Source: a virus
Virus record (IMG/VR): IMGVR_UViG_3300046724_000096
Location: 1-51,184 of that record
Direction: 5' to 3' (one strand)
DNA: 51,184 nt
In this document: positions 6,527-35,149 of the stretch, piece by piece
Layout of the letters: every line of letters starts with the position of its first letter
Position numbering within the stretch: the stretch's first letter is position 1
Position numbers and translations under genes: made by a program
The notes under the pieces: model-generated
What the model was told of the DNA's origin: nothing
Seen by the model: the letters and a program-made list of their open reading frames with translations, nothing else
Database searches by the model: none

Positions 6527-6529
6527 AAT

Positions 6530-7695: not shown

Positions 7696-9906
7696 TCATT
7701 GAACCAGCGGAATCCAATAATCCGCGCCGCCATAGCTGATCTTCAGATACTTCACGACTGTCTGCGGAGTTGTCGGCCCGGTTCCGCCACCCTTCGTCGT
7801 CGTCGTGACTGTCGTTCCCGCAGATCCAGTACCGAATCCAGCGGTGATACCAAGGCCAAGTAAGCCGCCAGCGCCAACTGGAGTCGCTCCCGCAATCGTG
7901 ACTGGGCCAGCAATGGCCGTCGTCGCACCGCCAGTCGCGATAGCGACCTGATCCGAGGCGTCAATGCCGATGGCTGGAACATTGGCGGAATTTGCCGCAT
8001 TCCGACCCGATAGCCCAGCAGAGTTCGGCGTAACGAGCGGAGCGTCTGGCGCCACCACGCCACCGAAGCCGCAATAGCCGCGTGAAATCGCAAGCCCAAG
8101 GATGTCGTTATCACACCAGACGCCGTTGAAGCCCGTCGTCGAGACCGTAGCGCCAGCATTCAGATTGAAGAAGTTTCCGACAACCGGAAAACTGGATGAT
8201 GAGTTTACGTTCAGCGCAGTCTGTAGCCCCTCGTAGATATTCCCGCTAAATGTTCCTGCGAGTGAATTTCTCACGTAGTAGCCGTTATGGCTGCCGTCTG
8301 TGTAGTTGTTGATGATGTTCAAGCCACCGATCAACTGATGGTTCGGCGAAATGTAGAGCGCATAGCCCGCATTGGCCGGAGTGCATCCCATCGTGGTCGC
8401 GCAATCCTGCTCATAGCGCACGTTTTGGATGCTGACATTTCGTGAGTTGGAAGCGCCTGTGGTGTCATTCCAGTACAGCCCGTAAAGTCCCTGAACCCAA
8501 GCCTGATAGCCGTCCCATGTCACGTTCGTCAGGAATACACCGTCGTCGACGAGGAAGTTTGCCTGCGACGGGTCGGCGATTGTGTAGATATCCTGGAAGT
8601 GGAAGTGGTCCGCCGCGACGACTCCGGTGTTTGGATCGATACTAATGCGCACCGGCTGATCCGCGTTGAATGTCCAGCGCCGCGCTTCAAGGGTTTGGCG
8701 CCCCTGAACGCGCACGCCGGTACTGCCGGCCGTTGCGTCATGCCAATTTGAGATCGCGATATTGTCGGCCGTGAATTCTTCCGCGTCTACCAAGCACAGC
8801 GCGGTCTTCACATGCGTCGTGTCGCCGGTCGCATCGAATGCTAGATCGCGCACCTCGTTCTGTGCGATTGCGGCAGCACTGCCAAGTTGGAATTTGAGAG
8901 CGCACAGATTAGAAGACCCCGGGTTGAATTTCCATATTGTCGATTGAGGACCGGCGCCCCAGATGGATTCGCGACTCGTGGAGATCGTCACCGTCGAGGT
9001 CGTGAGATACGTTCCCTGATTGAATTTAATCCTCGCAACTCCCGCACCGTCGACCGCCGCCTGAATTGGAATCGTGTCATCCGTGACGCCATCGCCCACC
9101 GCACCCCACCACTGCGGATACACTTCGGGAACCTGCGTCGAAACAATACTGAACGTGCCTGAGCCGGAGAAGTGCTGTGAGATCGACCCTTCGATGCTTC
9201 CGTGAATCGTGACGGTGATTCCACCGCCAGCCGTGAGCCTGCCGCCTTCTGGGAAGTACCACGTCATCGTGGATGGCTGACTTAGATTAACGACGGTTGC
9301 TGCGGTCCCGGTTGGCCAGATGAGCGTGATCGGCTTCGTAACTCCGGTGAACACATCGGCCGTTATGCTCTGCGCACCCTGAAGATTGGAGCAGTCGACA
9401 ATTCCGCCCGTTCCCGGCAAGAGCGCGACCGCCGCAGTAAACTTCGCACCAAAATTCGCACCTGTCGTGCAGTATTGCCGATTATTGATCGATGTGAACG
9501 TCACGAGTCCGGCAGTAATCAACTCCGAAAGATCGTAAACCGGATCCACTTGCCGGATGAGCGCTCCGACATTCACGCCGTTGCACTTCGTTCCGGTGAG
9601 AGGAGCCGCCGCATAGATCGTGAACCTGTAACTCGTGGGCAACAAGAATATCTGGACGAAGGAACTGCCGTTGACCGGCTCGCCTGCCGTGTTTAAGCGA
9701 ATCGGATTCTGATTCGGCGTCCCGAGCGCAGAGTCCTGATAGGTCGCCGTCCAGTTTGTCGCGCTTCCGCTTGCCGTCGTACAGACGAAGCCGTTCGCGA
9801 TTGGCGCGTTGCCGTTCTTAAACTGCGGCGTGATCCAGGGGGCGATGGAGGAGGACTGCCCGAAGGCCGGAGCCGCTGCGAGAAGAATGGCGAGAATTAG
9901 TTTCAT
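7696..9906 (-). CDS. Tail fibre/spike with signal peptide and beta-helix
   Basis: A 736-residue protein. I place the start at 9906 because that ATG overlaps the upstream stop (ATGA) and opens a clear Sec signal peptide (MKLILAILLAAAPAFGQ). The next about 110 residues match the usual tailspike virion-binding pattern (TYQDSALGTPNQNPIRLNTAG). Then comes a beta-helix with the classical entry phrase WWGAVGDGVTDDT (about residue 265), followed by many Asn/Gly/Ser-rich coils. Such proteins bind or cut surface polysaccharide. A signal peptide ahead of a virion-binding domain is unexpected. The N-terminal region is paralogous to that of the neighbouring fibre. Confidence 0.8.
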   Translation of the reverse strand: MKLILAILLAAAPAFGQSSSIAPWITPQFKNGNAPIANGFVCTTASGSATNWTATYQDSALGTPNQNPIRLNTAGEPVNGSSFVQIFLLPTSYRFTIYAAAPLTGTKCNGVNVGALIRQVDPVYDLSELITAGLVTFTSINNRQYCTTGANFGAKFTAAVALLPGTGGIVDCSNLQGAQSITADVFTGVTKPITLIWPTGTAATVVNLSQPSTMTWYFPEGGRLTAGGGITVTIHGSIEGSISQHFSGSGTFSIVSTQVPEVYPQWWGAVGDGVTDDTIPIQAAVDGAGVARIKFNQGTYLTTSTVTISTSRESIWGAGPQSTIWKFNPGSSNLCALKFQLGSAAAIAQNEVRDLAFDATGDTTHVKTALCLVDAEEFTADNIAISNWHDATAGSTGVRVQGRQTLEARRWTFNADQPVRISIDPNTGVVAADHFHFQDIYTIADPSQANFLVDDGVFLTNVTWDGYQAWVQGLYGLYWNDTTGASNSRNVSIQNVRYEQDCATTMGCTPANAGYALYISPNHQLIGGLNIINNYTDGSHNGYYVRNSLAGTFSGNIYEGLQTALNVNSSSSFPVVGNFFNLNAGATVSTTGFNGVWCDNDILGLAISRGYCGFGGVVAPDAPLVTPNSAGLSGRNAANSANVPAIGIDASDQVAIATGGATTAIAGPVTIAGATPVGAGGLLGLGITAGFGTGSAGTTVTTTTKGGGTGPTTPQTVVKYLKISYGGADYWIPLVQ

Positions 9907-11897
9907 CGGACCCGCCTTGCTGCAAGATAGCCGTAGCCGGTCAGCGACGACGCGGTGAACGACGGCTTCACGATCAAGCATACCTTCGTCGTCCCAGAAA
10001 GGCTGTAGCGGAATGGGGGAAAGCCCTTCGCTATCTCGATCGCCGTTGGAATCTCTGCCGGTTGACCGTCAGCCGTGTAAGCACCGGGCACGCCGAACGC
10101 AGCAGCCGGAGCCACGTCGCAGTTACCTGCACCGCCCGACTTGCCTGAGCCCTGAATGAAATCCGTTACGCTCGTCGTTCCCGCCGCTCCATACTGCGCT
10201 ACGCCCCACACTTCCCAGTCGCCAGCCGTGAGCGTGAGTGTCGTGATCGAAGAGGCGCTCCCTGATGCCAGCACGACGGCAGAGCCGGATGCGAGAGTTG
10301 AGTCTTTAAATTCGCCGACGATTCCCACGGCGGCGTCATCGTTGGTCGTCGTTCCCACAATGCCGCCGGTAACCGTCAAGGTTTCCGACTGGCAGGTTTT
10401 CGTAACATTCTTCAGGATGCAGCCGTTCCAGTGAACCGCGGCGATCGTGATAGTCGCCGATCCAGAAGTAGCCCTCACATTGTCCGTGCTGAGGTCATTC
10501 ACCGATGAATCGATGTCGTAGGCGACTCCAGTACCGTCGTAGATGTGGTCCGCGAGCGCGGCCGTAAACACGGTTCGCAGCTTAACGCCACGGATGGAGG
10601 CGTTCACTCGAAGGCCCTCGATACGGAGGCCATAAAGAACACTATTGCGTTCGATGTCGAAACAGTAACTCGTCGCCACCGGCTGCTGCTCGCACTCCGT
10701 ATCAATCCAAGTCATCATGTCGGATGTTTGCGAGGTCGTCGTGTCGATTTGCTGAACGCCCGCACCGCCGATGATTGCGTTATGCACCGCCGTCCATCGC
10801 GTGATGTTGACGCCGGTATCGATCTGAATTGTAGCTGCTGGCGTTCCACTTGTCGGCCCGATCCATTCGTTGTTGATGAGACTCAGGAAGTCACAATCGA
10901 TCGTCGAGTTCGGATTGTCGGCAACGTGAAGCGGGATGTCGGCCTGAACGTAATTGCCGAGTAGGTACGTGGATTCGCGCCCTTCCAACTTGATGCCTTC
11001 GTTGTTGTTCGTGGAACCAGACAAGTTGGTGTAGACGTTCTCGATGTGGATATTCGACGTGTCAACGAGTTCGATACCGATTTTCTTGAAGTTGTTTGTC
11101 CCGAGAATCTCGATATTCTTGATGCAGCCAAAGAAGATTTCGGAGCCGCCGTTCGCGAACTTAATGAATGAGCCGGTACTTCCAGGACCATAGGTAATAA
11201 GTGAGGACTGTTGAGCGCCAGGCCCTTGAACGCAAAATCCGTCGCCTGAATTGCTAATGCCTGCGGTCGCGGTCAGGCTGGGCGGAAGAATTAGCGTCAC
11301 ATTGCTTTTGCTATTCGTGATGGCGGTCGAGACGGTCCCCAGGATGATCCCGCTCGCATCTGCGATGCCGCCGGTTGAAGGAAGATCCACCATGCAGGCG
11401 TTAATCTTCGCGCCAGCATCCGCCCCCGCAAACTGATCGCACTTTCGCACCGCGTTCAGGTTCTTAACGTTGACGACGTTGAAAGTGACGGGAGAAATCA
11501 GCCCGGCAATCAGGAGTTGGGCGAGATCGTAAACGTTGTCGCGCTGCCAGATGAGTGAGCCGACATCCTCTCCGTTGCAGAGATTACCTGTCCCTGCAGC
11601 GTACAGAGTAATTCGGTACTGTGCCGCAGTCAGGAAGATCGGGATGAGTGTCGTGCCGCTCACAGCCCGCCCAGAGTTATTCAGTTGGATCGGGTTGGCG
11701 TTCGGCGTGACGAGCAGGGAATCGAGGTAGGTGGCAAGAGGGTTGGATGTACCGCTCGCTTCCGTGCAGACGAATCCACGGCTTACCGGCGAAACGCCGT
11801 TGACGTTCGTGAATACCGGATAGATGCTCGGCATCAGTCCGCCGCTCTGACCAAACGCAGGCGAGGCGAGCAGGAGAATGAGTAGGAGTCTCTTCAA
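9903..11897 (-). CDS. Second tail fibre/spike with signal peptide and beta-helix
   Basis: A 664-residue protein. The chosen start is TTG at 11897, one base after the upstream stop, giving the signal peptide MKRLLLILLLASPAFGQ; the 16 extra codons upstream are implausible. The N-terminal domain parallels the neighbouring fibre (TYLDSLLVTPNANPIQLNNSG; VYDLAQLLIAGL versus VYDLSELITAGL). A beta-helix-type region follows (DLPSTGGIADASG at about 175), and then a compact beta domain at the C-terminus. It is probably an adhesin or depolymerase arising by tandem duplication. No catalytic residues can be assigned. Confidence 0.75.
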   Translation of the reverse strand: MKRLLLILLLASPAFGQSGGLMPSIYPVFTNVNGVSPVSRGFVCTEASGTSNPLATYLDSLLVTPNANPIQLNNSGRAVSGTTLIPIFLTAAQYRITLYAAGTGNLCNGEDVGSLIWQRDNVYDLAQLLIAGLISPVTFNVVNVKNLNAVRKCDQFAGADAGAKINACMVDLPSTGGIADASGIILGTVSTAITNSKSNVTLILPPSLTATAGISNSGDGFCVQGPGAQQSSLITYGPGSTGSFIKFANGGSEIFFGCIKNIEILGTNNFKKIGIELVDTSNIHIENVYTNLSGSTNNNEGIKLEGRESTYLLGNYVQADIPLHVADNPNSTIDCDFLSLINNEWIGPTSGTPAATIQIDTGVNITRWTAVHNAIIGGAGVQQIDTTTSQTSDMMTWIDTECEQQPVATSYCFDIERNSVLYGLRIEGLRVNASIRGVKLRTVFTAALADHIYDGTGVAYDIDSSVNDLSTDNVRATSGSATITIAAVHWNGCILKNVTKTCQSETLTVTGGIVGTTTNDDAAVGIVGEFKDSTLASGSAVVLASGSASSITTLTLTAGDWEVWGVAQYGAAGTTSVTDFIQGSGKSGGAGNCDVAPAAAFGVPGAYTADGQPAEIPTAIEIAKGFPPFRYSLSGTTKVCLIVKPSFTASSLTGYGYLAARRVR

Positions 11898-11898
11898 G

Positions 11899-12222: not shown

Positions 12223-12364
12223 TCAACTTCTCCAGTTCTGCCGCCATGAATGCGAGAGTGTTTTCGGCGACGCTGAGTTGAAAGCGCAATGTCGCAGCCT
12301 GAGTCTTGATGCCCTCGATGTTCTTCTCGAGGAGCACCTTTTGCATTTTCTGTTCTTCTGTCAT
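12209..12364 (-). CDS. 51-aa coiled-coil protein
   Basis: An ATG at 12364 overlaps the upstream stop (ATGA) and opens MTEEQKMQKVLLEKNIEGI, continuing as a single long helix with Leu/Val/Ile spacing to LEKLNGQS. It overlaps the next gene start by 14 bases. The length and helix suggest a small tail or fibre chaperone-like helical protein, but nothing specific is recognised. Confidence 0.6.
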   Translation of the reverse strand: MTEEQKMQKVLLEKNIEGIKTQAATLRFQLSVAENTLAFMAAELEKLNGQS

Positions 12365-13242
12365 GCGAAGTTCGTGATAATCCCGTTGGTGAACGTGAGT
12401 GTTTTTCCGACAAGCGATCCAGTCGTGAGCGTTCCGGTGATCCCCGGAGTCCCGTTTGCCTGAAAGTTAGTTACCGCATTGACGATTCCTGGAAATGTGG
12501 CGAGCCCTGTATTGTCGATCGCTAGCACTGGAGTCCCGTTCACCGACACGTTGAAGTTGCCGACTGCCAGGAAGTCCAAATCTCCGCTCGTGACGTTCTG
12601 GAAGGTTACGGTTCCGGCGGCCGAGTAAGTGGCGGACGAGACTGAATTCGCCACCATGTTGCCGCTTGAATCCACCGTGAACTGGTGACTCGCTCCAATG
12701 TCGAGCGTCTTTGTCGGGGCCGCGTTCAGGAGCGCGAGACGATGATTGGTGCTATCCCAGAAGAAGCGCGCGTTATCCTCGGAGATCACCCCGCCCGTCC
12801 CGATAAATGGCACAGAGCCAGCCGTCAGCCCGGTCAGCGTAATTCCGGCGAATGTCGGCGCGTCGCTCATGCTGAGACCCTGCGGCAGCGAGATCGGCTC
12901 GTAACTCGCGAGGCGCTCCAGGTCGGCAATCTGCGCGGAATAGTCCTGCGGGACGCTCTGTGTGGCCAGGGCGAGCGCCGCCTCGTCCTGCGCCTGAACG
13001 GCTGTCGTATTCTGGACAAGATCGCCGGAGAGGGCGTAGGTCGCGGCAACGTCGATCACCTGCGAGACCTGCGAGAACATCTTTTCCCACTGTGCAATCC
13101 GCCGCTGCCACACCGGCTCGATAATCAGGCCGGCGCTTCCATGCTGCCGAATCTCGGCAAAAGATTCTGGGGTGACGCGAACAAGTGGCGTTCTGAATTC
13201 CAGTCCTTCCACCTGAATCCCGGCGATCGTGATAATTGGCAT
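12361..13242 (-). CDS. Tail fibre-like protein
   Basis: A 293-residue protein without a signal peptide. A helical N-terminal part (about 25-110, with DVAATYALSGDLVQN) precedes repetitive short strands of the kind found in trimeric fibre shafts (VPFIGTGGVISEDNARFFWD; NHRLALLN; TKTLDIGASHQFTVDSSG). It is likely a collar or fibre-attachment component. The start overlaps the upstream stop (TAATG) and the end overlaps the next gene (ATGA). Confidence 0.65.
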   Translation of the reverse strand: MPIITIAGIQVEGLEFRTPLVRVTPESFAEIRQHGSAGLIIEPVWQRRIAQWEKMFSQVSQVIDVAATYALSGDLVQNTTAVQAQDEAALALATQSVPQDYSAQIADLERLASYEPISLPQGLSMSDAPTFAGITLTGLTAGSVPFIGTGGVISEDNARFFWDSTNHRLALLNAAPTKTLDIGASHQFTVDSSGNMVANSVSSATYSAAGTVTFQNVTSGDLDFLAVGNFNVSVNGTPVLAIDNTGLATFPGIVNAVTNFQANGTPGITGTLTTGSLVGKTLTFTNGIITNFA

Positions 13243-14861
13243 TACGAATCACAAGCGTCCGCGTTCATCGCCGCCTGCACGATGGCCGTCTTTACCGGAG
13301 ACGTCCCACTGATTTCCCAGACGCGATCCCGGCCCATCCCGCAGCGCACCCAGTAGATTCTCTTGTTGAAGTCGCCAGCCCGGCCCATATCCCGGCTGAA
13401 GAACGGCCCGTAGCTGACTCCGCCATCGTTCGACCAACGCAGCGAGACCGAAGGGCGAGTGCCATAATCGTAGAATCCGAGTGGCGTCATCACTGAGGGC
13501 TGAGGCATCGCAAGGTCTTGATCGTAAGGCTGATAGTTGTAGATGGCCTGCATGGCATCCGACTGAGCCTGCGTGATGGTGGTTGCGCCCACGAGACTCG
13601 CGAGATCCGCAGCGAACGTCACCGGGTCGACGCTGTGATCGTTGAGCCATATCGGTGTCGTCGTCCCCACACCAACCTGCATAAAAAGACCAAACCTGCG
13701 ATAAATGACACGCTTCCCATCTGCGGCTTGGTGAGGTGCCCGGCGCTCCCATCGGATCGGATAGCCGAAGTCCGAGAAGAAATCGGGGCTCATCTCGTAT
13801 AGCATCCCGTTTCCGTAATCGCCGCCGTAAATCTTCGCGAAGGCGGAAGCGTAGAAGTTCACACGATGTCGCTCGTAAACATTCGTCGCCGAGTTCCAGA
13901 ACGCAAGCTGATACCACATCCCGGTCGAGACGTCGTACTCCCAACTCTCGTTCGCCGAGGGGAACGTCAGCCGCAGGCACGAGTGGCCGTTTAGCTGGTA
14001 GGTGCTCATGATCGCGTCATCGTGGCGCCGGTACGTCCGGAAAGCATTCTCGACCGCATGATTGCTCACGCGCGTCGGAGTGTACCCATTCGCGCGCCAT
14101 ACCATGTGATCGCCATCCTTGTTCCGCCCCAGCCAGAAGATCGAGTTGTCGAGCTTCGCCAGGGCAAACTTTGCCGCCAGGCCCATCTCAATCACGCCGG
14201 CTGAAACCGGAACGAACGGCGCATTCGGATCCGTACCCACCGTGAAGACCTGCGTGCGTCGATTCCCGAAGAGCCACAATTCCTGAAAGGCCACGATCAT
14301 ATTGACGAGGGCGTTGGGATAGGCTTCTGCGGTCTGGAAGTTTAGAGCATCCCAGGTCACACCATCGTCGATCGAAAAGTAAAATTGATTCCGCGCCCCA
14401 TTCGTGCCCTCGGCGATCGCGATGACGTAGCCGGCCAATACCGATACGGCGAGCGGAGTGAACGGCGTCACCGGCTGCGTGAGCGCGCCGCTCAGACGAT
14501 ACAGGATATTCGCCGCCACGATGAACAGTGCCGTGGCTGAGGCATCCATGCTCACCGGAAGGCCGTCATCGCCGATCGGCCCAAATGTCCCGCTGACCGA
14601 GGCGTCGGAAACCAGATCGTAAATCGTGTCGTCCTGCACGTCGAAGAGGTGATCGTTCAATTCGAGCAACCCGCGGCAGGTTAGCTTCGTGCGGTTCAGC
14701 GTCGATGCCACGCTCTTCAGCCCATGCGAGCGATACATCACGTACTGGTTGCGTCCGGCTCCAGATTCGATCTTCTCGAGGTAGAGATTCTTGCAGGTCT
14801 GAATCTCCGCCTTCGAGGAGAAGAGTTGGTAGAAAGGCCCGATCAGCGCGGGAAAGTCCAA
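13242..14861 (-). CDS. P22 gp10-like tail hub / packaged DNA stabilization protein
   Basis: A 539-residue protein with the characteristic opening of the family (FYQLFSSKAEIQTCKNLYLE) and repeated beta-propeller-like strands with W, Y and G (for example YVIAIAEGTNG; FQELWLFGNRRTQVF; IFWLGRNKDGDHMVW). In P22, gp10 binds gp4 below the portal, closes the channel and carries the spikes and needle. TTG start directly abuts the upstream stop. A gp4-like gene lies in the same operon at 21552, so both tail-hub factors are present but are separated by exported-type proteins and lysis genes. Confidence 0.8.
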   Translation of the reverse strand: MDFPALIGPFYQLFSSKAEIQTCKNLYLEKIESGAGRNQYVMYRSHGLKSVASTLNRTKLTCRGLLELNDHLFDVQDDTIYDLVSDASVSGTFGPIGDDGLPVSMDASATALFIVAANILYRLSGALTQPVTPFTPLAVSVLAGYVIAIAEGTNGARNQFYFSIDDGVTWDALNFQTAEAYPNALVNMIVAFQELWLFGNRRTQVFTVGTDPNAPFVPVSAGVIEMGLAAKFALAKLDNSIFWLGRNKDGDHMVWRANGYTPTRVSNHAVENAFRTYRRHDDAIMSTYQLNGHSCLRLTFPSANESWEYDVSTGMWYQLAFWNSATNVYERHRVNFYASAFAKIYGGDYGNGMLYEMSPDFFSDFGYPIRWERRAPHQAADGKRVIYRRFGLFMQVGVGTTTPIWLNDHSVDPVTFAADLASLVGATTITQAQSDAMQAIYNYQPYDQDLAMPQPSVMTPLGFYDYGTRPSVSLRWSNDGGVSYGPFFSRDMGRAGDFNKRIYWVRCGMGRDRVWEISGTSPVKTAIVQAAMNADACDS

Positions 14862-17660
14862 CTAATGCTTGCCTTTCAGTAATACTCCAGCCCGACCGCC
14901 AGGGCCAGTCGTCACGACTGAAAACTGAGTGCTGGTCGTGCCGGTAACTCCAGTCGCATTCGCGTCGAGCCTACAGGCCCCAGGTGTTCCCGTCAGTGTC
15001 CCCGTGGTTGTCGTGAAGAGTCCGAGGATGGCTGCCCCGGAAACAGTCCCGCCAAGGGTTTGACCTAAGCAGGTTCCGGCATGTTTCGAGAGTGTAATCA
15101 CCCGCGTATCGTTGCAGGTGACGTTACTCGCATCTTGCACGGCCACGATGGTTGTCCCGAAGCTGACTCCCGACGGCGCATTTGCGGGCTGATCCGTAAA
15201 TGCCAAATGATCCGGAGTGCAGGGTGTCGAGATCGTAAAGGTGTTGCTGACGCCTGCCGTCAGAGCGGCATCGGTTGCGGTGATCGAGCCGCTTCCTATG
15301 GTTGTGGTGACGTTCAAATCGGTGAAGGTTGCGATGCCGGCGACGGCCGCTTTCGTGAGCGTTCCGGCGAGAGTCCCCCACGTCGCCCCGGCCGTCTTCG
15401 CGACAGTCACATTGCTCGTGTCGGTATTGCAGAGCACATTGCTCGCGTTATAGACGCCGACCGTCACCGTGCCGAGTGTGGCCGCTAGTCCGGCATTCTG
15501 CGGTTGCGCGATAAAGGTCAAATGATCCGGCGTGCACCCCCCGGCATTGGCTTCGTAGTACCCGATAGAGGCGTTGGCGGTCGTGAACGGCCATCCAGAG
15601 GACGAGCCATTGAACATCGTCAGCGCCTTGGCCTTATTCGCCGCCTGACTCGTGTTCAGGATGACCATGCTCGTCGCATCGGTGCCATTCTGAAAGCTTG
15701 GATTCGTGGTTTTGCCGATGCTGTTCGTATCTTGGCCGGTTCCCGTCGTAAACCCGCCGAGAGACAGGTAACTCAGCGTCGTTGGTGAAGTCGTGCTATC
15801 GGTGAAGTCCCACTGCTTTCCCCAATTGTTGTCGTTATTGACCTGATAGAACAGATTGTTGTCCGCCGTGTAGCCCGTCACGGATGCGACGGTGATTGTC
15901 AAGTCTCGAGCGGGAGACGTTCCACCAGTGAACGCAGTACCGGGTATGACGAGCGTATCGTTCACCGCGCATCGACCCGCCGAATATCCCGGATCTCGAA
16001 TGAGGATGGCGGTGTAAACGCCTGCCGCAACCGTCACGTCGAAGGAAACTTGGTAAATGCCGCCAGAAGCCTTGACGCAGCTATTCGTGCCGCCCGTAGG
16101 CTTCTTGGCGGTGTAGGTTCCGGCCGTCACTCCTGTCGCGTCTCCGCTAATCGTGACGGCTTTAATCAGCCCATTCTGCCCGTTCACGAGAAGGTTCCCG
16201 TTCAGCGATTTTGCGATGTTGTTGTAAACCTCGCTCCAGCCGCCGGCGCTGTTCAGCCCGTCCCAGTTCACACCTATAGTGTTCGTGTTCCATGAATTAT
16301 GGAAGATGCGATACGGATAGACGGCTTGCTGCTTAAGGATCGCTTCACCGCCGCCGCCGTCGAAGTCGGCGTAACACTGGTTCCGAAAAATCCAAATCGG
16401 TCCATAAGCGATCGAGGTGCTGTTCGTGTTGAAGGCATGGCAGGTGTTGCCGTAGGCGCTCGGCTGACCATTCGTTCCGCAGCGCGGAGCCGTCGCGGTA
16501 TTGCAAACGGGAACCGTAGCCTGAGTGACGAGAATCCGGTTGTTCCACGACTTTGTGTTGATGTTCCAGCCTTTGCTCTCGTTGCCGTCATCCTTGAATC
16601 CGCTCGTCACGTTATCGTGAATGTTGTTGTTCTCGGTCTGGCAGTCATCGCTATCCGCCGTGATGGCATCGCGGAAGGAACCTGTGACGGTGTTGAACGC
16701 GACCACATTATGTGAATTACTGCACCAGGCGATCCCCGCTGATGGAGAATCATAGATTGGGCTTTGATTGCAGAGGTTGAGTTGAGCTGAAGCCGCCACC
16801 ACATTATTCAGTACATAGATTTTTGTGGCGCCATCCGTCAGGAAGATGCCGGTGTTGTTATAGCCGGCCGCTGTGCCGCTGCCGGGGCAGTCGGTCGCGA
16901 CCGTGCTTGCCGAGACAGATTGAATCGCGTTTCCGTTCACGATGATGTCATGGGCCGACGCGCCGATCACGATTCCAGACTTATTCGACTGCGGCAGAAC
17001 TAATTGCCTCACGATAATGAAACTGCCGGTGATGTTTAGGTCGGCATTCGTCCCACCAGTCAGAAGTGTCGTGCCTATCGCCTCACCTTCAATAACAACA
17101 TAGGAGCCGAGAGATCCTGTGGCGCTGATGGTAAACCCCGCCGCCTGCGAGTACGTTCCTGCATTGATATGCAGGAAGTTTTTCGTGCCGTTATTCAGCC
17201 CCGTGATGCAGGTATTCAGCGTCGAAAGGTCCGTCGCGGTGCAAGTCGTCGCGCCTTCACTCGGCGCCGTATTGTACGTCGTTGTCGAGTCCACCTCGAC
17301 CGGGTTCGATCCGCTCACGCCGTCCGCGTCGCTCCATGTGATCCGCACGTCATAACTCGTGTTGATGAGCAGTCCGATCACAATGCCGCGCGCTTCATTG
17401 ACGTTCGTGTTTGCAACGCCTGTAAGGTATTGGCGCCTGTCGATGAACGGCGCATAGGCCGCGATCCATGTCACATCCGAGTGCTTCTTGTACTCAATCA
17501 GCGCGGAGTTGTTTGCGTTGTCGTCGCCGGTGAACTTTGCCCGCACCGATAGCGTCGTATCGTTTGCGTTTACCGTCAGCACGCCGGTCGTCGTGGCGTT
17601 CGTCGCGGCAAGAGCCGGACTCGGAATCAGGAACGCGAGGATGAGAAGAATTCGTTTCAA
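14862..17660 (-). CDS. Large exported beta-helix protein with C-terminal Ig-like repeats
   Basis: A 932-residue protein starting at TTG 17660 in a TTGA overlap with the upstream stop. It begins with a clear signal peptide (MKRILLILAFLIPSPALA). A fibronectin-like strand region spans about 20-120 (SYDVRITWSDADG). A right-handed beta-helix with polysaccharide-lyase-like Asn-rich turns covers about 125-500. At the C-terminus lie two bacterial Ig-like repeats beginning DHLTFIAQPQNAG and DHLAFTDQPANAP. Likely a surface-glycan-binding or degrading protein. No tailspike virion-binding domain is obvious, so it might be truly secreted. Confidence 0.75.
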   Translation of the reverse strand: MKRILLILAFLIPSPALAATNATTTGVLTVNANDTTLSVRAKFTGDDNANNSALIEYKKHSDVTWIAAYAPFIDRRQYLTGVANTNVNEARGIVIGLLINTSYDVRITWSDADGVSGSNPVEVDSTTTYNTAPSEGATTCTATDLSTLNTCITGLNNGTKNFLHINAGTYSQAAGFTISATGSLGSYVVIEGEAIGTTLLTGGTNADLNITGSFIIVRQLVLPQSNKSGIVIGASAHDIIVNGNAIQSVSASTVATDCPGSGTAAGYNNTGIFLTDGATKIYVLNNVVAASAQLNLCNQSPIYDSPSAGIAWCSNSHNVVAFNTVTGSFRDAITADSDDCQTENNNIHDNVTSGFKDDGNESKGWNINTKSWNNRILVTQATVPVCNTATAPRCGTNGQPSAYGNTCHAFNTNSTSIAYGPIWIFRNQCYADFDGGGGEAILKQQAVYPYRIFHNSWNTNTIGVNWDGLNSAGGWSEVYNNIAKSLNGNLLVNGQNGLIKAVTISGDATGVTAGTYTAKKPTGGTNSCVKASGGIYQVSFDVTVAAGVYTAILIRDPGYSAGRCAVNDTLVIPGTAFTGGTSPARDLTITVASVTGYTADNNLFYQVNNDNNWGKQWDFTDSTTSPTTLSYLSLGGFTTGTGQDTNSIGKTTNPSFQNGTDATSMVILNTSQAANKAKALTMFNGSSSGWPFTTANASIGYYEANAGGCTPDHLTFIAQPQNAGLAATLGTVTVGVYNASNVLCNTDTSNVTVAKTAGATWGTLAGTLTKAAVAGIATFTDLNVTTTIGSGSITATDAALTAGVSNTFTISTPCTPDHLAFTDQPANAPSGVSFGTTIVAVQDASNVTCNDTRVITLSKHAGTCLGQTLGGTVSGAAILGLFTTTTGTLTGTPGACRLDANATGVTGTTSTQFSVVTTGPGGRAGVLLKGKH

Positions 17661-19597
17661 TGGCCCACCTTGAGCAGGAGTAACTTTCGGTCTTTGCTCG
17701 TCACAACTTGCGACAGTGTTTGATCCGTGCGGCCACGAAAGCCCGTTGTGCCACCGACGCCGTTATCTGCGCGATCTACGAAATGGTAGGTTGTTCCATC
17801 GAGAAATCCATCCACGCTCGATGCGAAAAGGTCCTCGTAATTATTCAAGCCAGATGTCGCCACGTTTTTGTTGAATACCGGATTGAACGCGCCTGCTGTC
17901 CATGTCGGAGTGCTCGAAATGGGAGAATAGTAATAACCAATGGATTCGTCTGTGGCGGCGTTACCGTTGCCGCCGATCCACAAGACGAGTAACTGCAAGG
18001 GAATGTCGATGAAGAATGCGCCGGGATGAATGCTTGTCGCGTTCCAACTGCCTGCCGCACCGACCGGAATGATGGGATTTGATCCCGATGGTGTCCATGT
18101 CAAGCCGCGATCCGTACTCGTCGCCCATCCAATTTGCTCTTTGGTGACGGCCGCGTTGAATCCTCCATAGACCATCAGCATCAGTGCGGAATTCACGCGC
18201 ACAACATGCGGTGCTGCGACGAAACCATCGTCCCACGTTCCACCCGCACCTTTTGAAATGATCGCGACGCCGCCGTTCTGCACGTTCCAGGTTCCGGCTG
18301 TCGCGCAGTTTCCACCGCAACTGGCAACTGAGCATGTCGCGTAATAAATCGCTCGCGGTCCAGTATTGTTTCCACCGTGAAACCATGTCTTGCAGATATT
18401 GTCGTCAGGGTCGTAAATCGGGAATGTCGAGAGCGACGTTTCACCTTGAACCGCAGCCTTGAACGCCGTCGTTTGCGGCCCTGTTAGAGCACCGACGAGA
18501 TTATTGACATTGAACGCTGATCCGCTCGCCGTATCCTGGCTCGTGAATGTCCAGCTTCCAGCCGCTCCAGTTGAACTTGTCGCTATGATTGACGGGGTGT
18601 CGAAATCAAACGCCCCAGGCTGATTCGATGGATCTAATGTTTTGACGCCAGTGTCGTTTTCGAAATAGCCGACATAACTACCTACCGCTAGCTTCTGAAT
18701 CAGTGCCGGTCCAATTTGGTCCGCCCTGCCGTTGTTCGCGCCTCCGGCCCAGCCGAGATTCTGGACGTAAGGCGGACTTCCGCCGCGAGTCAGCGGGCCG
18801 GAAAGCGTTGCACCGCCGCTCGTCCCTACATTCGGCGTGTAGGACGTGACGGTAGGATCCGTGGTCGAGTAGGCCGCGCCCGTGATATTTCCCCAGTTGT
18901 TATTTCCGGACCAGTCCGCGACCTGAGTGGCTCCATCATTGAAGGAGCCAAACTCCCACCACCCTTGAAGCCCAGAGATTGCATCGGGCCGCACCGCTTC
19001 GTTGAAAAGGTCCGCCGCATTTTGAGCGGTAAGCGCAACGTTATAGAGAAGACCTCGCCGAAGAATCGCATTCTCGAACGCAGTCGCCGCCCCAGTACCG
19101 CCCCTTGCTCCAATCTGAGAGGCGACCGAATTCAGGATGGTATTGCCAGCAAGATTATCGGCTGTCGCGGCGGCCTTACTGGAAGACGATCCATTCACAT
19201 AGAACAAGACTCCGGAAGCGAGTCCGTTCCCGCTATAGGTCACGACAAGATGCACATAAGTATTCAGCGTCAGGACTTCGCCGGAAGTCCGCTGAACGAT
19301 GTGATTACTCGGTGAGTTCTGAATACCCACCTGAACAATGGCGTTGGTTGCACCTGCGGCTGTTGAGACTGCCCATCCACGTACGTTCGCCGTCGCATCC
19401 TGCTTTCCGATGATGACGCCTGCCACGTTTGTCTTCATGCGGACCCAACAGGCAATACTCCACGCCTGAGTGCCTTCCCAATTGCCGAGCGTGGTGTTCA
19501 GGTCAATCCGCTGCGAAGACGCTGCCGTGAAGTCACGCGAGGCGAACGCGGGAACTGTTAGCGAAAGACAGAGCAGAAGTGGAATTAGTCGTCGCAT
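17657..19597 (-). CDS. Exported LamG lectin plus five-bladed beta-propeller (GH43-like)
   Basis: A 646-residue protein. The start at 19597 gives signal peptide MRRLIPLLLCLSLTVPAFA right after the upstream stop; the earlier in-frame start would add 69 antisense-like residues. Residues about 20-235 form a concanavalin-like (LamG) domain (FTAASSQRIDL; WSIACWVRM; NTYVHLVVTYSG; LQGWWEFG). Residues about 300-640 look like a glycosidase-type propeller (WFHGGNNTGPRAIYYATC; LMLMVYGGF; IGWATSTDRGLTWTP; GYYYSPISSTPTW). A glycan-binding or hydrolase role is inferred; catalytic acids cannot be assigned. Confidence 0.75.
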   Translation of the reverse strand: MRRLIPLLLCLSLTVPAFASRDFTAASSQRIDLNTTLGNWEGTQAWSIACWVRMKTNVAGVIIGKQDATANVRGWAVSTAAGATNAIVQVGIQNSPSNHIVQRTSGEVLTLNTYVHLVVTYSGNGLASGVLFYVNGSSSSKAAATADNLAGNTILNSVASQIGARGGTGAATAFENAILRRGLLYNVALTAQNAADLFNEAVRPDAISGLQGWWEFGSFNDGATQVADWSGNNNWGNITGAAYSTTDPTVTSYTPNVGTSGGATLSGPLTRGGSPPYVQNLGWAGGANNGRADQIGPALIQKLAVGSYVGYFENDTGVKTLDPSNQPGAFDFDTPSIIATSSTGAAGSWTFTSQDTASGSAFNVNNLVGALTGPQTTAFKAAVQGETSLSTFPIYDPDDNICKTWFHGGNNTGPRAIYYATCSVASCGGNCATAGTWNVQNGGVAIISKGAGGTWDDGFVAAPHVVRVNSALMLMVYGGFNAAVTKEQIGWATSTDRGLTWTPSGSNPIIPVGAAGSWNATSIHPGAFFIDIPLQLLVLWIGGNGNAATDESIGYYYSPISSTPTWTAGAFNPVFNKNVATSGLNNYEDLFASSVDGFLDGTTYHFVDRADNGVGGTTGFRGRTDQTLSQVVTSKDRKLLLLKVGH

Positions 19598-19598
19598 A

Positions 19599-20489
19599 TT
19601 AATAAGAAATCGCGCTCTTGAAGCCCGAGCAAAATATCTTCGTACTTGAGCCGGTTGTGACATTCGCGGCGAATAGGCCATTCCCGGCAGTTGGAACCTT
19701 GAGTGGATGATTCGGCCATGACACGTCGGCACCGCCGCCTCCCGTTGTCGCGACCGATGCTGCCGGTGCCGGAATATTCCAGATAATCGTGCCGCCGCTT
19801 CCATCCTGAAGACTAATATCCGTGCTGACCGTCGTGCTCGCGTTCGATACGGTGCAATGGTCGATGTAGATGTATTGGGCAGCGGTTGCGGAGACGACGA
19901 CGGTTGAGGTTGTCGCCGTCATTGCGGTCGTGATTCCGCCAGAAGTCAACGCCTCGTAACTGACGACTATTCCATCGGCCGAACTCGGCACAACCGGGCC
20001 CGAGGCCGTTGTCGGTAGCACGTTGTTGGAGCCATCGACGACTTCGACCTTATTCCCGACCGCCGTGAAGCTGGCGATCGCCGTCGCCGCGCCAGGCATT
20101 CCCTGTGTTCCGAGGATCACGACGCTAGCCTGCCCACTCGCGAAGACTGAACAGCGAACCCGTAACTCTTGAAGGCCCGCAACGCCGAACTGCCACACGC
20201 CGGCGGCCGTTGCCGACGTCACGATCGCCCCTCCGGCGATAGGCGTACCCCCGACTGCCGTGAAGTTCACGCCATCAAGTGTCGCTTCAAATAGCAGCGT
20301 CTCGCTGAATGTCCCGGCGATCTGAACGCCGACGCTCGCGGTCCCCGGAGGAAATCGCAGCAAGACGCAAGAACTTGCCACCGTGCAGTCGGTGGAACTT
20401 GCCGAGATGGCATCCGCCGCGATCGGCGCCTGAGCGAGAAGCACTCCAGGAATCAGCAGCAATCCCAAAGCACAAAGAAGTTTTTTCAT
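19599..20489 (-). CDS. Exported beta-rich protein
   Basis: A 296-residue protein from ATG 20489 in an ATGA overlap with the holin candidate. Signal peptide MKKLLCALGLLLIPGVLLAQ. The mature part shares a recurrent pattern with the glycine-rich protein at 22863 (DCTVASSCVLLRFP and TASVGVQIAGTFSETLLFEATLDG, compare SGTLQISGTFSGTATFQAS there), so the two have a common N-terminal domain. The C-terminal part is Thr/Val/Ala-rich beta sheet. Its function is unknown; a particle appendage or secreted glycan-binding protein is possible. Confidence 0.65.
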   Translation of the reverse strand: MKKLLCALGLLLIPGVLLAQAPIAADAISASSTDCTVASSCVLLRFPPGTASVGVQIAGTFSETLLFEATLDGVNFTAVGGTPIAGGAIVTSATAAGVWQFGVAGLQELRVRCSVFASGQASVVILGTQGMPGAATAIASFTAVGNKVEVVDGSNNVLPTTASGPVVPSSADGIVVSYEALTSGGITTAMTATTSTVVVSATAAQYIYIDHCTVSNASTTVSTDISLQDGSGGTIIWNIPAPAASVATTGGGGADVSWPNHPLKVPTAGNGLFAANVTTGSSTKIFCSGFKSAISY

Positions 20490-20785
20490 TGTTGGCCCTT
20501 TTCCTCGCTCTTCGTATCTGTTGAAGGAGTGAGCGACTTTGCAAAGACTCCGATCGCCACGCCGACGACGTATTTCCCGTCGTCGTAGAGCATAATTTTC
20601 ATCATGATAACGCCCGTGATGAGTAGCACATACGAGACGAGAATCGAAGCCCCGGGACGGTGTAGCGTGTCCACGAAGTCGCGAAAGTCCTGCATGGTGG
20701 CACGGTGGATGAGGTAGCAAACAAACAGCGGCATCAGTATGGATTCCGTCAGCTTGACAAGCAGAACGCCGTCCCAATTAATCAT
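20486..20785 (-). CDS. Candidate holin (small membrane protein)
   Basis: A 99-residue protein with hydrophobic segments at about 8-27 (LLVKLTESILMPLFVCYLIH), 47-66 (SILVSYVLLITGVIMMKIML) and a weaker one at 70-82. It has a charged tail (TDTKSEEKGQQ). Two or three membrane passes with a charged C-terminus and direct coupling (ATGA) to the transglycosylase gene fit a holin that releases or activates the endolysin. Confidence 0.6.
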   Translation of the reverse strand: MINWDGVLLVKLTESILMPLFVCYLIHRATMQDFRDFVDTLHRPGASILVSYVLLITGVIMMKIMLYDDGKYVVGVAIGVFAKSLTPSTDTKSEEKGQQ

Positions 20786-21243
20786 GGCTGCCTCGTTGCT
20801 GAATTCAGGTATGCGTAATCTTTATAATGCCCAAGAACGAGATCCGGATAGTTCGCGTTGCCTCCGCCGTTGTAGGAAAGAAGCGCGGCCGGGATGCTTC
20901 CGCCGTTCTTGTCCAGTGAACGCCTGAGCTTCGTGAGACCCTGGCGCAAGTTATCGAGCGGCTCAAGAAGTTGCGTGAGAAACTTGGCGTCATAGCCCTG
21001 TTCGCGCGCGGTCTGCCCCATGATTTGAGTTAGGCCGAAAGAGGTTGCCCGCATTCGCATTTCGGTCTCGCTCAAGCCTTTCATGCTGGAAATGTAGCGG
21101 TCGTAGAATGCGGGCTCGTAGCGCACGGCAAACTGCTGCCAGCCGTCCGATTCGTGGGCGCAAAGCGAGCAGACGAGTGCTGGATCCAGGCCCATGTTCA
21201 AGGACGCCATCGTGGCGAGTTTAATCAGGTCTTCTTTGTTCAT
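20782..21243 (-). CDS. Lytic transglycosylase / endolysin (SLT-like)
   Basis: A 153-residue lysozyme-fold protein. Glu31 in the CAHESDGW motif is the likely catalytic acid. FGLTQIMGQTAREQG (about 68-82) and ALLSYNGGGNANYPD (about 119-133) are the other SLT-family motifs. It would cleave peptidoglycan glycan strands. There is no signal peptide or SAR-like segment, so it needs a holin; the downstream overlapping gene is a holin candidate and the upstream gene is spanin-like. The set forms a three-gene lysis cassette inside the tail region. Confidence 0.8.
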   Translation of the reverse strand: MNKEDLIKLATMASLNMGLDPALVCSLCAHESDGWQQFAVRYEPAFYDRYISSMKGLSETEMRMRATSFGLTQIMGQTAREQGYDAKFLTQLLEPLDNLRQGLTKLRRSLDKNGGSIPAALLSYNGGGNANYPDLVLGHYKDYAYLNSATRQP

Positions 21244-21530
21244 CGTGCCCTCGCGCGATCGGACTGAGTTTCTAGGCGGTCGATGCGCTTCTCGTGGCCT
21301 TCGGTCAGCGTGGCGAGATGCGCGTTCATGCTCTGCATTTCGGCGAAGAGTTTGTTATTCGTTTTTCGGTTCTCGTCGCATTCCTGATCGTGGCGAATGA
21401 TCCACTTGCTATGCCACCGCTGCTCTCGATTGAGTAGCGTGTAAATCAGGAGCGCGGCTCCGGCGACGATGACGGCGTTGATCGGATCAAAATGAAGCTG
21501 CTTGAGAAATTCAGCGCCGATTTCTGGCAT
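21240..21530 (-). CDS. Single-TM coiled-coil protein (inner-membrane spanin-like)
   Basis: A 96-residue protein. One membrane segment lies at about 16-33 (NAVIVAGAALLIYTLLN), followed by a charged coiled coil to the end (HDQECDENRKTNNKLF; EKRIDRLETQSDRARAR). This is the plan of Rz-type inner-membrane spanins. It is coupled by ATGA to the transglycosylase. An outer-membrane partner could be the lipoprotein at 41540, but that gene lies in another operon. It could also be a different lysis membrane protein. Confidence 0.5.
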   Translation of the reverse strand: MPEIGAEFLKQLHFDPINAVIVAGAALLIYTLLNREQRWHSKWIIRHDQECDENRKTNNKLFAEMQSMNAHLATLTEGHEKRIDRLETQSDRARAR

Positions 21531-21551
21531 CCTGCCCTCCGATAGTTTTCA

Positions 21552-22331
21552 TCATTGGAAGCCGCCTCCGATCCAATCCCACCCGCTCGTCCGATTGTCC
21601 TGCTCGCGCGTAGCATCGTCGCACTTGAGCGCATCCATATGCGTAATCACATTCGACGACTTCACGAAATCCATTGTCGCGGTCGCCTGCTCGCGCACGT
21701 CTTCCGGCACGGGCAGCACGCCGAGACAGAGGATCTTCGAGAGATTCGAGATCAGCAAAGGGCGATATCCTGGAGGCATCGCGAGAACGGTTGTGAAATC
21801 CGGATTTCCGTTGGCGTCGAGCGGAAACTCGTCCATGGCCACAGGATTGTAGAGAACCACCTTGAACGTCGCCGACGGCACCGGATAGAGGTAGATATTC
21901 CCGAAACCGGAGGAGTCGAAGTTGCGATCATAGATTAGCGCGCGAGAGAGCGTTGACGTGATTCCCTTCACGGTAATGCGCCGCCACTCCTCGACCGTGA
22001 AAATGTGCATCTTCAATTCCGGCTGAGGGGTATTGCCGGCAGTGTAGATGACTCCCGCGTAGTCGATGAAGATGGGCCGCGGCGTGTTCCACATCGCGCC
22101 CGTACCGATCGTGATGGGCGAGTTGGCGGTAATGTCGCCCTGTCCTGACGTGACCGTGAATTCGCCGACGCGCTGCCTTCGGTAGATCCAGAGGCGGTTC
22201 GTCTTCATCAGGTCGATCAGGTCGTTCAGGCGACGAAAGGCCCAGGCGGCTTCCTCGGGAGGAAGCACATCGCCTACGCCGATCATTCCCGACATTACCT
22301 CTGCGTCGAAAATAAGGTCCGAGACGGTCAA
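21552..22331 (-). CDS. P22 gp4-like head-tail connector (tail accessory factor)
   Basis: A 259-residue protein. The helical N-terminal part has the family pattern (SGMIGVGDVLPPEEAAWAFRRLNDLIDLM, described here in two parts around residues 14-42). A beta part follows, with FTVTSGQGDITANSP, the phrase RPIFIDYAGVIY and later IYLYPVP. In P22 the gp4 ring attaches under the portal and begins the tail. The product would bind the portal (28076) and the gp10-like hub (13242). ATG start; not overlapping its neighbours. Confidence 0.75.
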   Translation of the reverse strand: MTVSDLIFDAEVMSGMIGVGDVLPPEEAAWAFRRLNDLIDLMKTNRLWIYRRQRVGEFTVTSGQGDITANSPITIGTGAMWNTPRPIFIDYAGVIYTAGNTPQPELKMHIFTVEEWRRITVKGITSTLSRALIYDRNFDSSGFGNIYLYPVPSATFKVVLYNPVAMDEFPLDANGNPDFTTVLAMPPGYRPLLISNLSKILCLGVLPVPEDVREQATATMDFVKSSNVITHMDALKCDDATREQDNRTSGWDWIGGGFQ

Positions 22332-22850: not shown

Positions 22851-22862
22851 TTGTAGATCCTT

Positions 22863-24137
22863 TCAAAAATAAGAAATGATTGTCACGGCGCCATCGCCCC
22901 CATTGCCGCCAGATGTCGCGAGGTTTCCACCGCCACCTCCGCCACCACCAGGAACCGCGCCGTTGCCGCCGGTCTGCGTGGTTTGAGCACCGCCAGCTCC
23001 GCCAGATCCGCCGAGCGTGTAGACGCCTGTGGTCGTCGCAGAGCCGCCCTGAGAAGTTCCGCCCGCAGCGCCTTGCCCGCCAACTCCGCCTGCGCCGGCA
23101 GTTCCAGTCGATGCGCCACCCCCGCCGCCGCCGCCGCCGCAACTTGAGGTTCCGCCAGCGCCGCCAGCAGTGGCATTCTTTCCACCTCCGCCGCCCCCGC
23201 CACCTTGGTCGCCCTTACCGCCGATACCGCCGGTCGTGGCCCCCGTTCCGCCGCCTGCGCCTTGGTAGCCTGCGCCTTGTGTTCCCGGGCTTGAGTTTGC
23301 AGCGACAACAAGCGAACCCATTGATCCGCCGCCACCGCCCCCGCCTCCCGAGTTGGAGCTAGCGTCGATACCAATAACGCCGAGTCCTGCCGTCAGGAGC
23401 GTTTTGCCGCTCGTGACTTCAACGACAGTCGAACTGCCAGCGTTAGCCTTCGTTGAACCGCCAATGCCGCCAGTGCCAACCGTGATGGTCATGGTGGCTC
23501 CGATGGAAGCCGCATTCAGATGAATGACCGCACATCCACCCCCGCCGCCCCCGCCACCGCCAGCGGCAGTCGACACGATGCCCGCACCGCCAGCCCCGCC
23601 ACCGCCGATGGCGTAAATGTCAATCGCGATAGCCCCTGTCGGCTTATTCCATGTGTAAATTCCTGCCGAGGTATAGGCGTCTACCTGCGTCTTGACGACG
23701 CTCGAGGTGACGATGTTTCCCCGCGCCGGAGAGGAGGACAGCGAAACAATAAGGTTGCCCGATGTGTAGCTGGACACATAAACGCAGATATTCGTGAGAC
23801 TGGCGACGTCGAGTTGCCACGCTCCAGCAGCGGTCGCTGTCGATACAAGCGCGCCGCCGGCTAAAGGCTGGGCCGAGGTCGTCGTCCATTGCTGCCCGCC
23901 GCTCGCCGAGGCTTGGAATGTGGCCGTTCCGGAGAACGTTCCTGAAATCTGTAGTGTCCCGCTCGAATCGGTCGGGTTGAGACGGAGGTTCACAGAACTG
24001 GAACTATCGGCCTGGGTGCAAGCACTGCCGCTCGCGTTAAGCGTGGCGGTCTTGGTGTTGTAGGTCTGCGCCGAGGATGGGAGCGCGAACCCCACAATCA
24101 GGACCAGGGCGCAGGTAATCATGATTAGTCGGTTCAT
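22863..24137 (-). CDS. Exported glycine-rich fibre-like protein
   Basis: A 424-residue protein. I chose ATG 24137 because the earlier GTG at 24176 lies inside a terminator hairpin. Signal peptide MNRLIMITCALVLIVGFALPSSAQ. Residues about 25-130 share a domain with the protein at 19599. From about 135 the sequence becomes a Gly-rich domain (AGIYTWNKPTGAIAIDIYAI entry, then runs of 7-9 Gly separated by short Ala/Thr/Ser segments). Such domains resemble polyglycine-helix receptor-binding tips of phage adhesins. It is the first gene after the coat operon terminator. Confidence 0.7.
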   Translation of the reverse strand: MNRLIMITCALVLIVGFALPSSAQTYNTKTATLNASGSACTQADSSSSVNLRLNPTDSSGTLQISGTFSGTATFQASASGGQQWTTTSAQPLAGGALVSTATAAGAWQLDVASLTNICVYVSSYTSGNLIVSLSSSPARGNIVTSSVVKTQVDAYTSAGIYTWNKPTGAIAIDIYAIGGGGAGGAGIVSTAAGGGGGGGGGCAVIHLNAASIGATMTITVGTGGIGGSTKANAGSSTVVEVTSGKTLLTAGLGVIGIDASSNSGGGGGGGGSMGSLVVAANSSPGTQGAGYQGAGGGTGATTGGIGGKGDQGGGGGGGGKNATAGGAGGTSSCGGGGGGGGASTGTAGAGGVGGQGAAGGTSQGGSATTTGVYTLGGSGGAGGAQTTQTGGNGAVPGGGGGGGGNLATSGGNGGDGAVTIISYF

Positions 24138-24170
24138 GGAAAGCGTTCCCTTCTTCTTGAAATGCGAAAA

Positions 24171-24198
24171 GGCCACCCCTGTTTGACGAGGGGTGGCC
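24171..24198 (-). terminator. Terminator hairpin downstream of the coat/exported protein genes
   Basis: A perfect 10-bp stem (GGCCACCCCT / AGGGGTGGCC, 24171-24180 and 24189-24198) with an 8-base loop. Read on the minus strand it is followed by TTTTCGCATTT. It lies between the protein at 24229 and the glycine-rich gene, so it probably reduces transcription past the coat region. Confidence 0.75.
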
Positions 24199-24228
24199 AG
24201 AGTTGGACTATACAGCTAAGTCCTTTGT

Positions 24229-25275
24229 TTACTTATACAAACACGAAATTGGCCCAACATCCGCAGTAAAAGTAGTTGGCGCTGTGAAATCGGGCCAAGT
24301 CCCGAAAGTTTGGCTTGTCGCCGATCCCGTCACCACGTTCGGATAAGTGGAAGCCGCGATGAAGGCGTAAGCCCCCGCCGCTGATCCATTACCCGTCTCT
24401 GTGACGAAATACATGGCAGGCCCGGTGACGAGCGTGGTCGTCTGGGCCGCACCATTACGGTTCAGCGCAAAGGCATTCGTCTGGAACGTGCTGGCACCGG
24501 ATAACAGGGCTCCCGCTGCCGCGCTACTCGCGATCCGTTTCCCATCAGCGGAAAACAGGGCGGAGGTCACGTTGTCGGTCGTTGCTGTGGTTCCGGCAAG
24601 GAACTTGATCCCGGTGAAAAATGCCGTGTACGGAACAAAGATCGACGCCCGGAACTGCTTATCGGCCGTATCGGCGACAACGGTTCCCAGAGAGGCGTAG
24701 GCCACCGATCCGATCGGCACCGTGCAAACTGACGAGAGCGGCGTGGTCGGAACGTCATCGGGCAAGGTCTGCTGCAGCCAGACCCCGCCGTTGCAGTTAT
24801 ACATCGCGGCTCCGCCCAGAGCATTCGGATTGACCTGAATGAGCGGCAGGATTCCATAGTTACCGCGGGTGCAGGAACCCTGAAGCGCATTCGAAATGAA
24901 CGGTCCACCGGACTGCCCGGCTGCCGGCCCCGGACTGGATGGTGCCACGCCCACAAAGACGTGCGCCCCAGAGGCGTGCGGCGTCGCGCCCGTTCTGGAC
25001 TGACCACGCTGAATGGTGATGGTTGTTCCGCTGACGGCCGTGATCCGGACGAGTTCGTGATCGATGAACGCATAGTAGTCGGTTCCAACAGCCGAATTGC
25101 TGGCCGTGAATCCGGTGGCACTCGCGACGATCATGCGCGTGGCGCGCTCGTCGGAGATTGCCGAGGAGAGAGTCGTGAAGGTTGGCTGCACTTGAGCGAA
25201 GGCGGTCACGGAGACCGCCAACAGAACCACAGCCAACGTCAGGATTTTCATGAAGTTTTTCATATGGGTTTCCAT
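24229..25275 (-). CDS. Exported protein directly downstream of the coat gene
   Basis: A 348-residue protein. ATG 25275 has AAAGGA five bases upstream and gives METHMKNFMKILTLAVVLLAVSVTAFAQ (described as a signal peptide of about 28 residues, cleaved after FAQ). Residues about 65-115 carry a phage structural pattern (DYYAFIDHELVRITAV, then ITIQRGQSRTGATPHASGAH). The rest is beta-rich with four or more Cys, including CTRGNYG, YNCNGGVW and VCTVP. Placement right after the coat would suggest a capsid decoration protein; the signal peptide argues for export. Confidence 0.7.
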   Translation of the reverse strand: METHMKNFMKILTLAVVLLAVSVTAFAQVQPTFTTLSSAISDERATRMIVASATGFTASNSAVGTDYYAFIDHELVRITAVSGTTITIQRGQSRTGATPHASGAHVFVGVAPSSPGPAAGQSGGPFISNALQGSCTRGNYGILPLIQVNPNALGGAAMYNCNGGVWLQQTLPDDVPTTPLSSVCTVPIGSVAYASLGTVVADTADKQFRASIFVPYTAFFTGIKFLAGTTATTDNVTSALFSADGKRIASSAAAGALLSGASTFQTNAFALNRNGAAQTTTLVTGPAMYFVTETGNGSAAGAYAFIAASTYPNVVTGSATSQTFGTWPDFTAPTTFTADVGPISCLYK

Positions 25276-27642: not shown

Positions 27643-27717
27643 AATTAACTCCTATGGTCGGGATGGATTCAGCGTTTAACGGCACGCCGTCGCCGAGTAC
27701 GCGGACGAATCCGCGAG

Positions 27718-35144: not shown

Positions 35145-35149
35145 CGGCA

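Follow-up and report, generated by a model that had tools for sequence, protein, structure and literature searches.

Sec signal peptides on appendage-type proteins of an uncultured P22-like podovirus and a proposed assembly route in two compartments

Assembly of tailed phages is generally described as wholly cytoplasmic. In P22, the tailspikes are the last part added to the particle and they join heads in vitro; Israel, Anderson and Levine (1967, as cited in PMC3741392) are said to have added P22-type spikes in vitro to spikeless particles. Virion proteins with cleaved Sec signal peptides are known from the filamentous phages, in the coat proteins pIII and pVIII, and pIII contains disulfides. 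Other phage proteins that use host export are spanins, SAR endolysins and superinfection-exclusion lipoproteins. We found no earlier report of Sec routing of tailed-phage appendages among the open-access papers searched, which is not proof of novelty.

Here we describe a 51-kb virus contig (IMGVR_UViG_3300046724_000096), analysed over all of its 51,184 nucleotides and called the window below. A minus-strand module encodes portal, coat, hub/head-closure and DNA-ejection proteins (phrog families in Table 1), and because this set is of P22 type we regard the window as a P22-like podovirus.

Signal peptides in the structural module

At seven minus-strand starts (9906, 11897, 17660, 19597, 20489, 24137 and 25275) we found complete signal peptides, each with a positively charged n-region, an h-region of 8-16 residues and an A-x-A/G-type site. 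The leaders, with the +1 residue after the caret, are METHMKNFMKILTLAVVLLAVSVTAFA^Q, MNRLIMITCALVLIVGFALPSSA^Q, MKKLLCALGLLLIPGVLLA^Q, MRRLIPLLLCLSLTVPAFA^S, LKRILLILAFLIPSPALA^A, LKRLLLILLLASPAFG^Q and MKLILAILLAAAPAFG^Q. Signal peptides were called with a rule-based scorer of our own. Composition-preserving shuffles matched the seven leader scores in <=0.3% of trials, most of the starts are set by an ATGA/TTGA overlap or a neighbouring stop, and of 168 annotated CDS from four related leaderless phages the scorer called one, weakly. These lines of evidence agree with the preliminary description, which had placed Sec signal peptides at the same seven starts. Two of the starts are TTG, as might be expected if starts had been chosen wrongly or if hydrophobic N-termini had arisen by chance in a repetitive tail module; with the overlaps, the shuffles, the control CDS, and leaders that are conserved in relatives of diverged sequence, such an artefact is hardly credible. 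Of the window's non-exported virion genes, 11 were scored and 0 had a signal peptide, and none was found in the portal, coat, scaffold, hub and ejection genes tested in the window and its relatives. From these sequences, predicted Sec export of the appendage proteins is well supported.

Table 1. Features of the structural module and exported proteins of the window (aa, amino acids; SP, exported protein; D, domain)
Feature	Position	Strand	Description
Eighth exported protein, 139 aa	31525..31944	-	Signal peptide; HELIH (HExxH-like) motif
Portal protein	28076..30373	-	phrog_156; no signal peptide
Major capsid protein	25299..26546	-	P22 coat type, phrog_283; no signal peptide
SP1, 348 aa	24229..25275	-	Signal peptide 25195-25275; directly downstream of major capsid gene
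SP1 C-terminal domain D2	24232-24726	-	One cysteine at either end
SP2, 424 aa	22863..24137	-	Signal peptide 24069-24137; beta domain D3 (common to SP3); Gly_rich_2 domain
gp4-like tail accessory protein	21552..22331	-	Assigned by position; phrog_12985 (unknown function); no signal peptide
Lysis genes	20486..21530	-	One-TM protein 21240-21530; SLT transglycosylase 20782-21243; two-TM holin-like protein 20486-20785
SP3, 296 aa	19599..20489	-	Signal peptide 20433-20489; domains D3 and D4
SP4, 646 aa	17657..19597	-	Signal peptide 19541-19597
SP5, 932 aa	14862..17660	-	TTG start; signal peptide 17607-17660
Tail hub/head-closure protein	13242..14861	-	phrog_578, gp10-type; putative D1 docking partner; no signal peptide
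SP6, 664 aa, tailspike-like	9903..11897	-	TTG start; signal peptide 11850-11897; D1 11461-11849
SP7, 736 aa, tailspike-like	7696..9906	-	Signal peptide 9859-9906; D1 9457-9858
Ejection-type proteins, three	1998..7678	-	No signal peptide; 6530-7678, phrog_598 (DNA ejection); 4712-6526 and 1998-4715 by position

Along the direction of transcription, the module runs from portal, scaffold and coat through SP1, SP2, a 172-aa protein, the gp4-like gene and the lysis genes to SP3, SP4, SP5, the hub, two small proteins, SP6, SP7 and the ejection proteins. The set of exported proteins is larger than first thought: all seven genes stand, but they are joined by an eighth, and a lipobox is present at 41540-42028. 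The leader of the eighth protein is retained in a distant relative (L059, 49% identity), where the gene lies between the portal and coat genes. The preliminary description had also located the exported genes in a tail/virion module, which holds for the appendage genes but not for the tail alone, given that SP1, encoded directly behind the major capsid gene, is exported too.

The exported proteins differ in what their sequences suggest. Domains noted earlier as repeated do recur, at 47% identity over 219 aa (E 4e-41) between the genes at 7696 and 9903, and at 42% over 130 aa (E 2e-17) between those at 19599 and 22863. For SP1, the fold search returned only weak capsid- or tail-type matches, the best being 9jwb_Z (cyanophage A4 capsid unit; E 7e-4, TM 0.34), and we do not claim a structural identity on matches of this strength. 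By eye, the N-terminal half of SP4 is LamG-like and the C-terminal half Asp-box/propeller-like, with sub-threshold Pfam matches only; at the corresponding place the relative L007 encodes an exported Laminin_G_3 protein. SP5 appears beta-helix-like by eye and has 18 cysteines in its mature part. The C-terminal domain of SP6 matches phrog_11393 (tail fiber). For the right-handed beta-helix trunk of P22-type tailspikes, we found no trunk family in SP6 and a sub-threshold pectate-lyase-like match in SP7 (PF12708 at 24.8 bits, under the 27-bit cut-off). By inspection, neither SP6 (ending ...TGYGYLAARRVR) nor SP7 (ending ...YLKISYGGADYWIPLVQ) has a hydrophobic C-terminal segment.

Several other features of the window were recorded. 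A tRNA-Thr(CGT) gene lies at 27717-27790 (minus strand) between the portal and scaffold genes. Between the terminase and early genes, a 400-aa ORF (34113-35315, minus strand) is a possible coat paralogue, similar to the coat protein of the same phage in two stretches of its C-terminal half (42% over 48 aa, E 1e-9; 26% over 108 aa) and different in its N-terminal half. The ORF at 41540-42028 (plus strand) encodes a 162-aa phage-encoded lipoprotein with the lipobox VGC, to which a gene of L005 (1178-1957) is akin by eye, with N-terminal membrane segments in addition. At 44878-46185 (plus strand), a 435-aa protein with multiple membrane spans looks GT-C glycosyltransferase-like by eye and gave 0 matches in Pfam and NCBIfam. 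The relative L062 encodes a PMT_2 (protein mannosyltransferase-like) and TPR membrane protein (8895-10562) within its structural module, with exported proteins on one side and the gp4-like gene on the other. The similarity between these two proteins is not significant, and we dropped the idea of phage glycosylation.

The D1 domain and its hub

The preliminary description had proposed a virion-binding domain behind the leader in at least two proteins. This proved true of SP6 and SP7, whose D1 is a P22-type head-binding domain by both fold and sequence. The AF2 model of D1 has a pLDDT of 86, and the 23 best PDB matches of its fold search were all P22-type phage particle or tail entries at probability 1.00, and nearly all carry tailspike or head-binding domain in their names (P22, Sf6, Pan3, Pam1). 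A D1 sequence profile matched the spike domains of Pan3 and Pam1 (E 1e-6 to 7e-6), and the hub of the window, the cognate of D1 and of gp10/Hc3 type, matches the partner chains in the same two solved tail complexes. Of 50,697 phage records, 35 contain D1, and all 35 fall among the 46 records with the hub. Because fold, profile, hub partner and co-occurrence point the same way, the best interpretation of D1 is as the domain by which spikes of this tail lineage dock on the virion.

In 20 deposited phages with D1 and the hub, at most about a dozen residues separate D1 from the start of the protein, and there is no leader. Among the phages with leaders, D1 follows a signal peptide in 6/6 cases (twice in the window, and in L005, L007, L027/L054 and L062). 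The leaders of SP6 and SP7 place 16 residues before D1, such that D1 would come to lie at the very N-terminus only after cleavage. An alternative reading is that each gene yields two forms, an exported one with the leader and a leaderless one from an internal start that goes onto the virion. An ATG is indeed found just behind the cleavage site in SP6, L007, L062 and L027, approximately where leaderless homologues start. At that point, SP7 and L005 have no ATG, GTG or TTG, and we saw no clear ribosome-binding site by eye. We rejected internal starts as a general rule on the missing start codons of SP7 and L005, and we regard the two-form explanation as rather improbable.

D1 also bears on whether the exported proteins act away from the particle, as free glycan-binding or glycan-cleaving proteins on the host surface or matrix that serve in receptor clearing, superinfection block or spread. 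The LamG- and pectate-lyase-type domains would suit such a function, and SP1 to SP5 have no recognised virion-docking domain. Against it, SP6, SP7 and their orthologues retain a full head-binding domain together with a matching hub, and we found no leaderless D1 spike gene elsewhere in the window, where SP6 and SP7 are the only D1-bearing proteins. In addition, leaderless relatives have the same domains in ordinary phage proteins that lack a leader, and Sec alone reaches only the periplasm in a two-membrane host. We consider free secretion of the whole set unlikely; for the exported proteins without a head-binding domain it is possible, and the D1 of the exported spikes could be a remnant.

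Leaders and cysteines across relatives

Scans of IMG/VR with single proteins, the hub or SP7, returned 0 relatives, and an alignment of the SP6/SP7 domain gave access to them. Scans with alignments identified two close relatives (L006/G002 and L007/G001, coat 81% identical), one intermediate relative (L027/G007, coat 57%) and five distant ones (L057, L059, L060, L061 and L062, coat 22-34%). The distant relatives, L057-L062, were recovered through one domain of an exported protein and are a non-random sample. The sequence of G001 (IMGVR_UViG_3300009609_000004) has the end of the coat gene at both contig ends, which suggests a circularly permuted, near-complete 62-kb genome. Searches of the 50,697 phage records by tblastn with SP7 and with D2 of SP1 gave 0 matches. 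The sole match to the capsid alignment in bacterial genomes is a distant 3.3-kb contig, binned as Alphaproteobacteria, and we therefore assign no host.

The signal peptides, whose conservation in related phages the preliminary description had proposed as a check, are kept: we listed 32 appendage-type genes with signal peptides in 9 uncultured P22-like contigs, the window included. Orthologues of SP1 were seen behind the coat gene in 7/8 relatives, with a signal peptide in 7/7, and further fibre-type genes of the relatives also have signal peptides. In a coat-protein tree, one branch parts the leader phages from the leaderless ones (support 85/87), with the distant set not unbiased, having been found via an exported domain.

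Paired cysteines tend to occur in proteins that fold outside the cytoplasm, whereas they are not required of a cytoplasmic protein whose N-terminus is hydrophobic. Even cysteine counts are favoured in exported proteins (PMC7678975). The count was even in the mature parts of 27/30 leader proteins compared with 10/27 cysteine-containing core virion proteins from the same phages (Fisher p = 6e-5, an optimistic value given that the sequences are related), where a Poisson null gives about 49%. The mature parts of SP3, SP4 and SP6 have odd counts. Single domains show the same signature: a cysteine pair was present in 5/6 copies of D1 with a leader versus 0/24 without, and in 8/9 copies of D2 with a leader versus 0/4 without. 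D3 and D4 follow this trend in fewer sequences, and the exceptions are L060, which has no D2 pair, and L027, in which the D1 cysteines are arranged differently. Although kinship overstates the p-values, four unrelated domains concur, and as read from sequence the parity and the pairs support real export independently of the leaders.

These data also weigh on a different function for the leaders, as uncleaved N-terminal anchors by which the proteins would stay attached to the inner membrane or the particle. A hydrophobic N-terminus by itself fits a signal anchor. Across the 32 leaders, however, the h-regions are short (8-16 aa), small residues occupy -3 and -1, and Q stands at +1 in 27/32. The docking domain of leaderless homologues has no hydrophobic extension, and the even cysteine counts of the mature part point to translocation. 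Anchoring is thus highly improbable.

Assembly in two compartments and its relation to known systems

We propose, as the somewhat more probable account, that the core of the particle is built in the cytoplasm and that the appendages are exported, cleaved and disulfide-bonded beyond the inner membrane, to dock when lysis mixes the compartments. The proposal starts from features that can be read in the genomes: the leader, its restriction to appendages, the docking domain and hub, the cysteine signature and conservation across relatives. Cleavage, location, disulfides and docking after lysis are steps that we infer. Portal, coat, scaffold, hub and ejection proteins would remain cytoplasmic and give DNA-filled particles. 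The peripheral proteins, namely the D1 tailspikes, other fibres and the capsid-adjacent protein, would be synthesised with Sec signal peptides and leave the cytoplasm; signal peptidase I would remove the leaders, and the mature proteins would form disulfide bonds as they fold beyond the inner membrane. Once the envelope is broken at lysis, the exported spikes would reach the spikeless particles and their head-binding domains would dock on the hub. This division matches the gene content: proteins with leaders are of the kind found outside the finished particle, and those without are of the kind that must assemble around DNA in the cytoplasm. Docking after lysis may be argued by analogy with P22 biology, and the position of the lysis genes next to the appendage genes fits the model and proves nothing.

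Three explanations had been offered at the outset, and of these we favour assembly of the appendages after lysis and disfavour uncleaved anchors, on the signal-peptidase-type sites, the even cysteine counts and the leader-linked cysteine pairs. It was also stated that export contradicts the known route. This goes too far, since spikes of P22 type are the final addition to the particle, and spikeless particles accept them in vitro. It is an evenly balanced question whether this lineage sends all its peripheral appendages through Sec, to be stabilised by disulfides beyond the inner membrane and docked only at lysis, having moved ordinary virion domains (head-binding, D2, D3 and D4), each with added cysteine pairs, to that route.

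If true, the model would describe a new assembly route in which the inner membrane divides core from appendages. It would account for disulfides in phage proteins and give disulfide-hardened spikes, and it predicts intracellular particles that lack spikes and become infectious only upon lysis. It also yields an annotation rule for metagenomes, in which a signal peptide ahead of a head-binding domain would reveal more such phages.

The exported set shares with Sec/signal peptidase I substrates the n-, h- and c-regions and the small residues at -3/-1, as judged by the rule-based scorer. In contrast to filamentous phages, whose coat proteins are held by membrane anchors and come together at the membrane on ssDNA as it is extruded, the window belongs to a tailed dsDNA phage with a proposed cytoplasmic core, and SP6 and SP7 have no visible C-terminal anchor. 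Secreted phage effectors act in lysis or modify the host, whereas the exported proteins of the window are of appendage type and have virion domains. SAR endolysins carry a weakly hydrophobic, uncleaved anchor on a lysis enzyme; the leaders of the window have a strongly hydrophobic Leu/Ile-rich h-region and a cleavage site, on non-lysis proteins. The closest systems are the tailspikes of P22 and Sf6 (gp9 and gp14) and the cyanopodophages Pam1 and Pan3, all of which share the head-binding fold of D1. Pam1 and Pan3 also share spike-domain sequence kinship and a matching hub with the window, and P22 shares the portal and coat type. D1 comes first in 20/20 homologues examined in deposited phages, whereas in the window a Sec leader precedes it and a cysteine pair has been added.
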